64,000 bases of DNA from Maribellus sediminis (lineage in GTDB: Bacteria > Bacteroidota > Bacteroidia > Bacteroidales > Prolixibacteraceae). Below, piece by piece: positions 6,373 to 10,114 of this stretch. Both the position numbers and the translations under genes were made by a program. The DNA is taken from NCBI RefSeq assembly GCF_011799805.1, contig NZ_WXUB01000002.1, positions 1-64,000 of the forward strand, read 5' to 3'. Each line of letters opens with the position of its first letter. Within the stretch, counting starts at the first letter, position 1. A model generated the notes under the pieces. It saw nothing but the letters and a program-made list of their open reading frames with translations, was not told where the DNA came from and did no database searches.

Positions 6373-6380
6373 TATATTTG
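6373..6380 (+). promoter_or_regulatory. -7 box upstream of fabG
   Basis: TATATTTG, a full TAnnTTTG match, 42 bases upstream of the fabG ATG. The predicted transcript would have a leader of about 35 nt. Confidence 0.5.
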
Positions 6381-6421: not shown

Positions 6422-7168
6422 ATGAAACTACTCGAAGGAAAAACAGCGATCATCACCGGAGCATCGCGTGGTATCGGAAAAGCTATTGCAGTAAAATTTG
6501 CACAGGAAGGCTGTAACGTTGCTTTTACCGATCTGTTTAACGATGAAAACATGAAAGCTACTGAAGCCGAATTAAAAGAACTTGGCGTGCAGGCAAAAGG
6601 TTATGCATCGGATGCAAGTAATTTTGCCGATACCGATAAAGTGGTGAACGAAATTGTAAATGATTTTGGCCGTATCGATGTGCTTGTAAATAATGCGGGC
6701 ATTACAAAAGATACGCTACTAATGCGTATGACCGAAGAACAGTGGGATGCTGTGATTAACGTAAACCTGAAATCAGTTTTCAACTTCACGAAAGCTGCAC
6801 AACGTACCATGCTAAAACAACGTAGCGGATCGATCGTAAACCTGAGTTCAGTTGTTGGAGTTAGTGGAAATGCAGGACAAGCCAACTATTCAGCTTCAAA
6901 AGCAGGGATTATCGGTTTTACCAAGTCTGTTGCACGCGAACTCGGATCTCGTGGGATTCGTTCAAACGCCATCGCACCCGGTTTCATCATTACCGAAATG
7001 ACTGGAAAAATACCTGAAGAAGCGCGTAAAGCATGGGAAGAGTCAATCCCGATGAAACGTGGTGGTACACCGGAAGAAGTAGCTGGAGTTGCAACTTTCC
7101 TGGCATCAGATCTTTCATCATACGTTAGCGGACAGGTAATTACCGTTTGCGGCGCCATGAATACCTAA
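6422..7168 (+). CDS. fabG: 3-oxoacyl-ACP reductase FabG (SDR family)
   Basis: 248 residues, classical short-chain dehydrogenase. Reduces 3-oxoacyl-ACP to (R)-3-hydroxyacyl-ACP with NADPH in fatty acid elongation. TGASRGIG at residues 12-19 binds the cofactor, NNAG at 88-91, and the catalytic set is Ser141, Tyr154 and Lys158 (YSASK). The end AMNT after VSGQVITVCG departs from the common DGGMxM ending, but the fold is complete. Stands alone with its own -7 box at 6373 and a downstream hairpin at 7250. SDRs are hard to assign to exact substrates from sequence; FabG is the best call from the PGFIxTEMT motif. Confidence 0.9.
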   Translation: MKLLEGKTAIITGASRGIGKAIAVKFAQEGCNVAFTDLFNDENMKATEAELKELGVQAKGYASDASNFADTDKVVNEIVNDFGRIDVLVNNAGITKDTLLMRMTEEQWDAVINVNLKSVFNFTKAAQRTMLKQRSGSIVNLSSVVGVSGNAGQANYSASKAGIIGFTKSVARELGSRGIRSNAIAPGFIITEMTGKIPEEARKAWEESIPMKRGGTPEEVAGVATFLASDLSSYVSGQVITVCGAMNT

Positions 7169-7249
7169 TCATGATAAGGCGAATACGTTAAGTTAATTTC
7201 GTGGAAATGGAATAACTTAATTGTATAACATAATATTATTTAATAAATT

Positions 7250-7277
7250 AGCTGTCAAAATACTGGCAGCTTTTTTT
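7250..7277 (+). terminator. Terminator-like hairpin abutting the PfkB start codon
   Basis: AGCTGTC (7250-7256) pairs with GGCAGCT (7265-7271) around an 8-nt loop, followed by seven T residues (7271-7277). The next base begins the ATG of the PfkB gene at 7278. It may terminate fabG transcription or act as an attenuator for the next gene. Confidence 0.6.
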
Positions 7278-8153
7278 ATGATTTTTAAAGGACTCTTTTT
7301 CGGATTAACAACTATCGATATTCAGTATTTTGTTGATTCCTTTCCCACGAGTAATCAAAAAGTAAAAACCGATACACCTGAATTTCTGGTGGGAGGTCCG
7401 GCGACAAATGCTGCAGTTGCTTTTTCTTTTCTGAATAACGGAACTTTCCTGGTTTCATCGGTAGGAGAGAACAGTTTTTCGCCATTTATTATAGAAGATT
7501 TCCTAAAAAACAATATTCAGTTCATCGATCTGGGAAATAGCGAATCAATGCCAGTGGTCGCATCCGTTGTAACCTCGTCAAACGGCGACAGAACTATTTT
7601 TACGCACCACCCGGAATTAAAAGACAATAATTTCGATGTAAACGAGGTTTTAAATTTAGTGCAGCCGGAGATAATATTACTCGATGGATTTTATCCTGAA
7701 GCGGCTGTTTTACTGGCAAAGGCAGCGTTCAGTAAGAAAATACCAATAGTGTTGGATTGCGGAAGCTGGAAACCACAATATGACGAGCTTCTGAAATATT
7801 CGGAAGTTGCAATTTGTTCAGCCGATTTTCTGCCACCGCATTGTGAAACTAACGACGATGTATTTTCATTTCTGAAAAATAAAGGAGTGAGGAATATTGC
7901 GATTACGAGGGGGGAAAAAAGTATTCTGTTTGAAACCGTTGAAAGTAAGGGCGAAGTTGAAGTAACAACAACAACCGTTGTTGATACCCTGGGAGCTGGT
8001 GATTTTATACACGGCGCATTTTGTTTTTACAGACTTAAATATAAAAGCTTCGAGCAGGCCTTGACCAAAGCATCAGAACTGGCTACATTTACCTGTTCGT
8101 TTAAAGGAACACGCCAGTGGCTTAATATGAAAAGCATGATGAGTTTTATATAA
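7278..8153 (+). CDS. PfkB/ribokinase-family sugar kinase
   Basis: 291 residues. ATP-dependent kinase of the ribokinase superfamily acting on an unknown sugar or nucleoside. Seen: N-terminal GLTTIDIQYFVDSFP, GGPATNAAVAFSFL (signature 1 region) and DTLGAGDFIHGAF (signature 2, with the catalytic base Asp in GAGD). I chose ATG 7278 since MIFKGLFFGLTTIDIQ is a normal family beginning; a TTG at 7221 would read through the hairpin at 7250-7277. No sugar operon surrounds it, so the substrate cannot be inferred. The PP2C phosphatase gene follows after 41 bp and may be cotranscribed. Confidence 0.87.
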   Translation: MIFKGLFFGLTTIDIQYFVDSFPTSNQKVKTDTPEFLVGGPATNAAVAFSFLNNGTFLVSSVGENSFSPFIIEDFLKNNIQFIDLGNSESMPVVASVVTSSNGDRTIFTHHPELKDNNFDVNEVLNLVQPEIILLDGFYPEAAVLLAKAAFSKKIPIVLDCGSWKPQYDELLKYSEVAICSADFLPPHCETNDDVFSFLKNKGVRNIAITRGEKSILFETVESKGEVEVTTTTVVDTLGAGDFIHGAFCFYRLKYKSFEQALTKASELATFTCSFKGTRQWLNMKSMMSFI

Positions 8154-8194
8154 AATTTACTTAAATTGTAATTACAAGTTGAAATCCGGGCTAC

Positions 8195-10114
8195 ATGTTA
8201 AATAAATCGATAGCTTACAGGCTAAGTATATATATATCGCTTGCAGTAATAAGTGTATTTGTGGCATTTATTATTATTAATTTTCTTTTCAACTTAAAGA
8301 TTATAAAAGAGAATATACAATTCAAGGCTGATAATACGAGCGTTGAAGTAAATTCTGTTGTTAAAAAATACGTGGTCACTACCCAGGAGGTGGCAAAGAA
8401 TATTGCCGATCAGATTATTTTTTACGAAAAAGAGGATGCTATTGGGCCATTTCTGGATAAAATACTTGAGAAATATCCGTTTATCAATAGTATTCATATC
8501 AGACTTGATTCAACTATAGAAGTTTCGCATCATTACCTGTTTACATTTAGAGAGGCTGATTCTACATATATGTATGAATCCAATAAGCCCATTGTTACTT
8601 GTGTCGATAAAAATCCGAACTACATCGAATTAGTACAGGATCCTGATGTAATTTGGTCTGAGCCAATAGTCTGTGAAAGAAATAAGCATGTTGTAGCCTC
8701 CTATTATTCGCCGGTTACACAATCAGAACCAAACAATAAAAACAAGCTTGTTGGTTCGGTCATATGTGAGCTTTCGCTATTGCACATTAACGATGCTGTA
8801 AATAAGATTAAAGTTGGAAAAAGTGGCTATTCCATTTTATTGTCAAGAAAAGGTGTTTATATTTCACATCCAAGAAAAGATTTTATCCTCGAGAGAAACG
8901 CATATGATATTCCTAAAAAGGTTATTGATCTGGATGTGTCCGAAATTAATGATATACTTTCGGGGAATAAAGGCGCCGGAATAATCGCCTATCCTGAGGT
9001 TCTTGATTATCAAAAAAGCTGGTTGTCATTTTCCAAAATTCCGGAAACGGGCTGGCTTGTTGTTATGGTTATTCCATATGCCGAGCTTTTTGAACCGCTT
9101 TATCTGCCAATTCTTAAAATGTTGTTTTTCTCTGTGCTTGGAATTCTGGTAGTATATATTTTGATCACCTATATCTCGAATAAACAGATTCAACCTTTGA
9201 GCAGTTTAACTTCTCAGTTAAAGCGCTTTAGTGATATTTCAGGAGAAGCCTATGCCGGTGAAGCCTCATTAAATGAAATTCAACAGGTTTCTGACAGTCT
9301 GAACCTGATAAAAGCGTGGTATGAAAAAAATAGACTCAAAGTATCGCAGGATGCCAAACTCGACAAAATCAGGTATGATGATATTCTCGAAGCTGCCGAA
9401 ATTCAGCAAAGCCTCATAAAATTGGAATATCCGGCATGCCCGAATGTGAAAGAGATTGATCTGTTTGCTTTGTATAAACCAGCAAGGATCGTAAGTGGCG
9501 ATCTTTTCGACTATTTTTTCAGAGACGAAAAACAAATGGTTTTTACGATGGGAGATGTTTCAGGAAAAGGTGTACCTGCTGCATTTTTTATGAGCATGTC
9601 GCAAACAATTATAAAGTCGGTTGGAGCCAATCCTGAATTAAAGCGAAGTGCCGGCATTGTTGAGGAAGTAAATGAACAGCTGTACTCTAACAATATTCAC
9701 CAGTTTTTTCTCACACTATTTCTGGGTATCATTAACATTGAAACCGGAAAACTCTCGTATTGTAATGCGGCCCATACAACATCTTATGTTTTAAAAACCA
9801 ACGGACACTTGGATGAATTAAAGGAAGCGCATGGTCTGCCTCTGGGGCTTTATCGCGACAGGGGTTATCACGAAAGTAAATACCAACTGGAAAAAGGCGA
9901 TTCAATAATTGTTTATACCGATGGAGTAACAGAACTTCAGGATGAAAATAATTTACAATATGGTGATTTTCGGCTTCAGGAGAATCTAAAAAGTTTGGCA
10001 GGATTAAAACCAAAAGAAATGGTAAAGAGGCTTGAGAAGAGCTTGAAGCAGTTTATCGGAGATACTGATCAAAGTGATGATATCAGTATTTTAGTCATCA
10101 AATATGAGGGATAA
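8195..10114 (+). CDS. Membrane Cache-HAMP-PP2C (RsbU/SpoIIE-type) phosphatase
   Basis: 639 residues. TM helix at about 12-34, a periplasmic Cache-type sensory region to about residue 300, second TM helix near 302-327, a HAMP-like linker, then a PP2C/SpoIIE serine phosphatase domain from about 400 to the end. Metal-binding Asp residues are visible in VSGDLFDYF (near 433), MGDVSGKG (near 451), YTDGVTE (near 573) and DQSDDISIL. Such proteins sense an extracellular ligand and dephosphorylate an anti-sigma-factor antagonist in partner-switching pathways. No anti-sigma or STAS gene lies next to it, so the target is elsewhere. ATG at 8195 begins the first TM helix sensibly. Confidence 0.9.
   Translation: MLNKSIAYRLSIYISLAVISVFVAFIIINFLFNLKIIKENIQFKADNTSVEVNSVVKKYVVTTQEVAKNIADQIIFYEKEDAIGPFLDKILEKYPFINSIHIRLDSTIEVSHHYLFTFREADSTYMYESNKPIVTCVDKNPNYIELVQDPDVIWSEPIVCERNKHVVASYYSPVTQSEPNNKNKLVGSVICELSLLHINDAVNKIKVGKSGYSILLSRKGVYISHPRKDFILERNAYDIPKKVIDLDVSEINDILSGNKGAGIIAYPEVLDYQKSWLSFSKIPETGWLVVMVIPYAELFEPLYLPILKMLFFSVLGILVVYILITYISNKQIQPLSSLTSQLKRFSDISGEAYAGEASLNEIQQVSDSLNLIKAWYEKNRLKVSQDAKLDKIRYDDILEAAEIQQSLIKLEYPACPNVKEIDLFALYKPARIVSGDLFDYFFRDEKQMVFTMGDVSGKGVPAAFFMSMSQTIIKSVGANPELKRSAGIVEEVNEQLYSNNIHQFFLTLFLGIINIETGKLSYCNAAHTTSYVLKTNGHLDELKEAHGLPLGLYRDRGYHESKYQLEKGDSIIVYTDGVTELQDENNLQYGDFRLQENLKSLAGLKPKEMVKRLEKSLKQFIGDTDQSDDISILVIKYEG

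Follow-up and report, generated by a model that had tools for sequence, protein, structure and literature searches.

A probable fabG terminator packed against the start codon of a PfkB-family kinase gene in Maribellus sediminis and its relatives

A hairpin followed by seven T residues lies between fabG and a PfkB-family kinase gene in Maribellus sediminis, and the last T of the run touches the kinase ATG. We asked to which gene the hairpin belongs, and how a kinase gene placed directly behind it could be transcribed and translated. The window is the whole stretch of DNA that was analysed, 64,000 nucleotides of contig NZ_WXUB01000002.1 (assembly GCF_011799805.1, positions 1 to 64,000 of the forward strand); its coordinates are used throughout, and the loci of relatives are cited by their numbers. 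The features needed for the argument are:

6373 to 6380, + strand: TATATTTG, a sigma-A type -7 box located 41 nt before the fabG ATG (motif scan)
6422 to 7168, + strand: fabG, 3-oxoacyl-ACP reductase (NCBIfam TIGR01830, 337.8 bits against a cut-off of 297.75; Pfam adh_short_C2)
7184 to 7225, + strand: the second hairpin of the fabG 3' region, AU-rich and not followed by a T-run (-11.6 kcal/mol, z -4.01)
7244 to 7251, + strand: TAAATTAG, located at the stem base and agreeing with the -7 box in 5 of 6 positions, a weak candidate for a kinase promoter
7250 to 7271, + strand: the probable terminator hairpin of fabG (pattern scan, folding, comparison with relatives)
7271 to 7277, + strand: the T7 tract, with the ATG immediately after it (sequence, relatives)
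7278 to 8153, + strand: PfkB-family carbohydrate kinase, with ATG 7278 as its likely start (Pfam PF00294, 102.2 bits; N-terminus; in-frame stops)

The gene after the kinase gene, with its ATG at 8195, encodes a Cache-SpoIIE type phosphatase (the Cache match was just under its cut-off). For the substrate class of the kinase, all of the NCBIfam models listed scored far below their cut-offs.

The stem is formed by a 5' arm AGCTGTC (7250-7256) and a 3' arm GGCAGCT (7265-7271), giving 7 pairs and a loop of 8, or 8 pairs and a loop of 6 if an extra A-T pair closes the stem. T7271 serves both as the partner of A7250 and as the first T of the run, so that the run is T7 while the unpaired tail is T6; the kinase ATG (7278-7280) abuts the end of T7. 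The initial annotation had described a 7-bp stem, an 8-nt loop and T7 just before ATG 7278, and these coordinates were confirmed. Folding of 7245-7280 gave -11.5 kcal/mol compared to a shuffled mean of -3.7 (z -4.77), and none of 200 shuffles equalled it. A bare pattern scan of 20 kb returned 18 terminator-like sites where 16.8 were expected (sd 4.5), which is not above chance; the case for the hairpin therefore rests on comparison with relatives. The 101 nt of the intergenic stretch were also compared with the rest of the genome, where the best matches were 14-23 bases long with E values of 0.9 or worse, and a repeated element was rejected on this basis as the identity of the hairpin. The distance from the fabG stop to the terminator stem in the window is 81 nt. 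At the place of the second hairpin, folds of differing sequence were seen in L004-L008 and L043-L045, with z ranging from -5.7 to -0.9.

In the first set of relatives, all 28 loci where the kinase gene is next were found to have a hairpin with a T-run within 150 nt past the fabG stop. The corresponding counts were 14 of 27 for loci without a kinase gene (it is thus not universal there) and none of three for the loci (L012, L022, L023) where another gene is inserted before the kinase gene. These counts were obtained with a revised finder, positive in 24 of 2320 shuffled regions (1.0%), that was chosen after a first finder (28/28, 10/27 and 0/3; 3.3% of shuffles positive) had missed hairpins plain by eye; one more hairpin recognized by eye, in L061, was left out of the counts. 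The 27 kinase-less loci were drawn from 26 of 30 genomes, and for two of those counted as having the hairpin (L045 and L058) the contig ends 258 and 161 nt past fabG, respectively, the absence of the kinase gene there resting on a separate result. A wider family set, read with looser criteria and no shuffles, gave a hairpin and T-run in 45 of 45 adjacent fabG-kinase pairs. The 45 pairs came from 59 kinase-bearing family genomes, excluding the three loci with a gene between, nine in which no fabG was found upstream in the stretch read (L016, L028, L033, L111-L115, L117), and two truncated loci (G001, G060). In the three loci with the inserted gene, which by eye is sulfotransferase-like, that gene begins a few bases past the fabG stop.

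Because the hairpin accompanies fabG not only in all 45 pairs with the kinase gene but also in 14 of the 27 kinase-less loci, it is independent of the kinase gene. In L004-L006 it remains 56-58 nt behind fabG, yet its T-run lies 71-222 nt from the kinase ATG; in L040, L041 and L043, for instance, which have no kinase gene, the hairpin is followed by the phosphatase gene instead. Thirty-one distinct stem sequences occur among 59, with 183 of 186 core positions paired compared to a mean of 94.2 for re-dealt arms, a count that is partly circular in that the finder itself demands pairing. Counted against assigning the hairpin to fabG is its absence from 13 of the 27 loci without a kinase gene and from the three with an inserted gene; in at least three of those 13 (L039, L047, L064) a long frame begins only a few bases away from the fabG stop. 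Also counted against it is a scan of three kinase genes without an adjoining fabG, in which a terminator-like hairpin was present within 170 nt upstream in L028, where it follows an apparent tRNA gene (by eye), and in L033, and was absent from L016; these two hairpins may be terminators belonging to different genes upstream. The hairpin and T7 of the window are very probably the intrinsic (Rho-independent) terminator of fabG, the act of termination being inferred, and the suggestion that the hairpin is simply the fabG terminator is supported by its occurrence after fabG both with and without the kinase gene. Judged from these comparisons it is an ordinary intrinsic terminator, real and conserved, that stands uncommonly close to the start codon behind it.

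We examined if the hairpin could instead be fortuitous, a regulatory switch for the kinase gene, or part of the kinase coding frame. A chance hairpin without function would accord with the simple pattern scan, whose count was close to the chance expectation, but 45 of 45 loci have a hairpin, their stem sequences differ, and the shuffled rate was about 1% with the stricter finder; we regard chance as extremely improbable. Regulated attenuation, in which a terminator in the kinase leader would respond to a ligand, leader peptide or protein, draws on the position of the site just before a metabolic gene and on the 81 nt and second hairpin that the window has between the fabG stop and the terminator. 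It is opposed by the hairpins after fabG in 14 of 27 loci lacking the kinase gene and by those that stay near fabG in L004-L006; moreover, the fabG stop is 15-35 nt from the stem in 22 of 28 loci (the window itself having 81 nt), which is short for a leader peptide or an aptamer. No Rfam match at gathering scores was obtained within the window, and a riboswitch or known RNA element was rejected there for that reason. Taken together, these results make a switched leader very unlikely. Attenuation had been proposed for this site, and that proposal survives in part: the regulated leader is not upheld by the missing Rfam match, the hairpins without a kinase gene and the 15-35 nt spacing, whereas constant attenuation by a leaky terminator is likely. 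An initiation codon farther upstream, such as TTG 7221, would place the hairpin within the coding frame of the kinase, and in the window that frame is indeed open back to 7221. The conserved kinase N-terminus (a short stretch from Met, then approximately LF-x-GLTTIDIQYF) begins, however, at ATG 7278, and L002 and L007 have in-frame stops at or inside the hairpin, so that no start codon except the ATG touching the T-run is left nearby; the reading frame through the hairpin varies and is not shared between relatives, and in homologues with different neighbouring genes the protein starts at roughly this position. An upstream start codon was rejected on the N-terminus comparison and the in-frame stops, and with it the idea of a different start, which we consider scarcely credible.

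The initial annotation had noted that no room is left for a ribosome site between hairpin and ATG. As an argument this fails, in that the Bacteroidota are described in an excerpt of PMC6847099 as a phylum without Shine-Dalgarno sites, and an SD-like 4-mer precedes 27 of 302 genes of this genome, the upstream regions being A-rich. The kinase start has an unusual setting: six or more T in positions -7 to -1 were found for 2 of 302 genes only, and opening the start region in the read-through RNA would cost 14.3 kcal/mol compared to a median of 5.9 (rank 19 of 302 genes). According to the same excerpt, low translation in F. johnsoniae goes with a U at -3 and with structure immediately before the start, which leads us to predict weak translation of the read-through RNA.

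To what extent is the contact between T-run and ATG out of the ordinary? Within 464 kb of the genome a terminator was found behind at least 40 genes, at least 21 of which have a co-directional gene within 400 nt, both values being lower bounds since the first kind of finder and simple gene calls of our own (304 genes) were used. Among those 21 or more, only fabG-kinase has a zero gap, the next gaps being 8 and 9 nt. Across relatives, 9 of 45 pairs have a T-run that directly meets the ATG (L001-L003, L007-L009, L029, L098, L104); all nine have exactly seven T, compared to 3 to 8 as measured in the other 36, and the stem-to-AUG distance is fixed at 7 nt in 9/9. (In the wider set the stems of L013, L017, L021, L024 and L025 were over-extended, so that measured gaps of 10-11 are really about 14-15.) The nine zero-gap kinases show pairwise identities of 43-69%, median 58%, some of these from partial sequence (about 50 residues only for L104). 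On a kinase tree of 34 rows the zero-gap rows fall into more than one clade. A quick fabG tree of 67 rows, from which four distant loci and those whose fabG was too short (including L098) had been omitted, requires 6 changes for the zero gap, compared to 7.7 on average after shuffling. By these trees, the zero gap arose or was lost several times. The regularity of T7 and ATG in the nine loci exceeds what a terminator alone would need, and it counts against reading the site as a plain terminator.

The supply of kinase mRNA was approached through promoter boxes. The motif TAHHTTTG (sigma-A -7) was seen 28 times in 180 upstream regions, compared to 5.8 times in shuffled sequence and 3 times on the other strand, and by that measure it behaves as a promoter element in this genome. 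Such a box lies within 90 nt before fabG in 26 of 42 loci, whereas between the fabG stop and the kinase ATG (within 90 nt) it was found in 3 of 45 (L029, L030, L098); the variant TAHHTTGY occurs in that interval in 2 of 45 (L008, L030). That conserved promoters are detectable by this method is indicated by the phosphatase gene, which has a TAHHTTGY box 21-34 nt before it in 40 of 44 loci with a placeable start, although some of the 44 are weak matches of 28-38% identity. Given the rarity of kinase boxes (3/45) compared to fabG boxes (26/42), we lean modestly towards read-through from fabG past a leaky terminator as the likeliest supply of kinase mRNA in most of these species. A further -7 box is present inside fabG at 6619, and a kinase promoter may exist even where no -7 match is seen. 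Two other candidates were dismissed: TAATTTCG at 7194 as a kinase promoter, having one mismatch and no like box there in the other 27 loci compared, and a leaderless start in the 13 relatives where TTTCTTTG or TTTATTTG stands 5-6 nt ahead of the ATG, which was set aside since TTNNTTTG shows no enrichment upstream of genes (7 seen, compared to 7.5 in shuffled sequence).

Most fabG transcripts would be expected to end at about 7272-7278, and if read-through is the supply, the kinase would be made from the minority of transcripts reading through. The terminator would then set a low, constant kinase-to-fabG ratio, acting as a fixed brake; in the read-through RNA the stem would end 7 nt before the AUG and, together with the U-rich leader, would presumably lower translation too. 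Immediately behind the probable terminator lies a patchily distributed PfkB-type kinase gene, with its start codon, in the window, touching the T-tract.

A different supply would be a promoter superimposed on the terminator, whose -7 box would stand where the stem begins on its 5' side and would direct kinase RNA to start inside the 5' arm or loop. Kinase RNA lacking all or part of the 5' arm would escape the terminator and have an open start codon, while fabG RNA would still be stopped. This arrangement is best supported in three relatives (L029, L030, L098) that have a perfect TAHHTTTG at the stem base (p 0.002, 0.002 and 0.016, uncorrected over 59 loci), which would place the RNA start at or within the 5' arm; L029 and L098 have gap 0, and L030 has gap 18. 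Scores of 5-6 of 6 were obtained in 7 of 10 loci with gaps of 0-3, compared to 7 of 35 with larger gaps and 3 of 14 without the kinase gene (uncorrected for relatedness), and in L008 a TAHHTTGY box ends 24 nt before the ATG. The implied leader of about 22 nt is near 23 nt, given in an excerpt of PMC7366714 as the commonest leader length in B. thetaiotaomicron, and an RNA starting at -22 would have an opening cost of 3.2 instead of 14.3 kcal/mol. Opposed to these points, the window's own TAAATTAG, which ends 26 nt before the kinase ATG, is not significant against shuffled flank (p 0.22) and is without a T that the excerpt of PMC6847099 gives as nearly invariant in F. johnsoniae. No score above 4 of 6 was reached by the 13 close relatives whose T-rich spacer measures about 14 nt, and TAHHTTAG is only weakly enriched before genes (7, compared to 2.7 shuffled and 4 on the other strand). 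On balance we consider the superimposed promoter unlikely, and somewhat less likely still that in the zero-gap lineages about 35 nt serve jointly to terminate fabG and to start both transcription and translation of the kinase gene. Were the triple use true, read-through fabG RNA would be both terminated and locked at the start codon, and the triple use would keep the 7-nt stem-to-AUG distance fixed. A superimposed promoter would also amount to a very compact insulator, the start point of each RNA deciding whether the terminator acts.

The hairpin shares with intrinsic terminators in general a GC-containing stem, a short loop, a T-tract and a position soon after a stop codon; what sets it apart is a T-tract that runs right up to the start codon of the following gene. 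We take it as a well-supported but ordinary terminator of unusual geometry. Among the matches listed in our literature search, titles and abstract openings mention no T-tract abutting a start codon, and an excerpt of PMC10994844 contains nothing on this arrangement. An overlap between the terminator of one operon and the promoter of another is described for Salmonella tufB-secE (Brandis, Cao and Hughes 2019, as cited in an excerpt of PMC7055797). Both cases have transcription units packed so that the terminator of one overlaps start signals of the other; here, unlike there, the terminator overlaps the start codon, promoter overlap is suggested mainly for a few relatives, and the arrangement is known from sequence alone. 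Transcription past an intrinsic terminator in the same phylum is reported for Flavobacterium psychrophilum, where an excerpt of PMC9723704 describes partial-termination transcripts (class 3'-PT); those were mapped by RNA, whereas read-through from fabG into the kinase gene is deduced from sequence. The locus illustrates the degree of gene packing that is possible when a phylum has no Shine-Dalgarno sites: a terminator may reach as far as the next start codon.

The kinase gene has a patchy distribution, with 59 of 140 family genomes having it at E values up to 1e-40, and the state in which it adjoins fabG requires about 10 changes on the quick fabG tree. The phosphatase box of the window is TAAATTGT (TAHHTTGY, 8162-8169), 25 nt before the ATG at 8195. 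It fits motif SM5 of F. psychrophilum, TAnnTTGY, which the excerpt of PMC9723704 presents as distinct from the sigma-A box; throughout the family, transcription of the phosphatase gene may thus depend on a different sigma factor.
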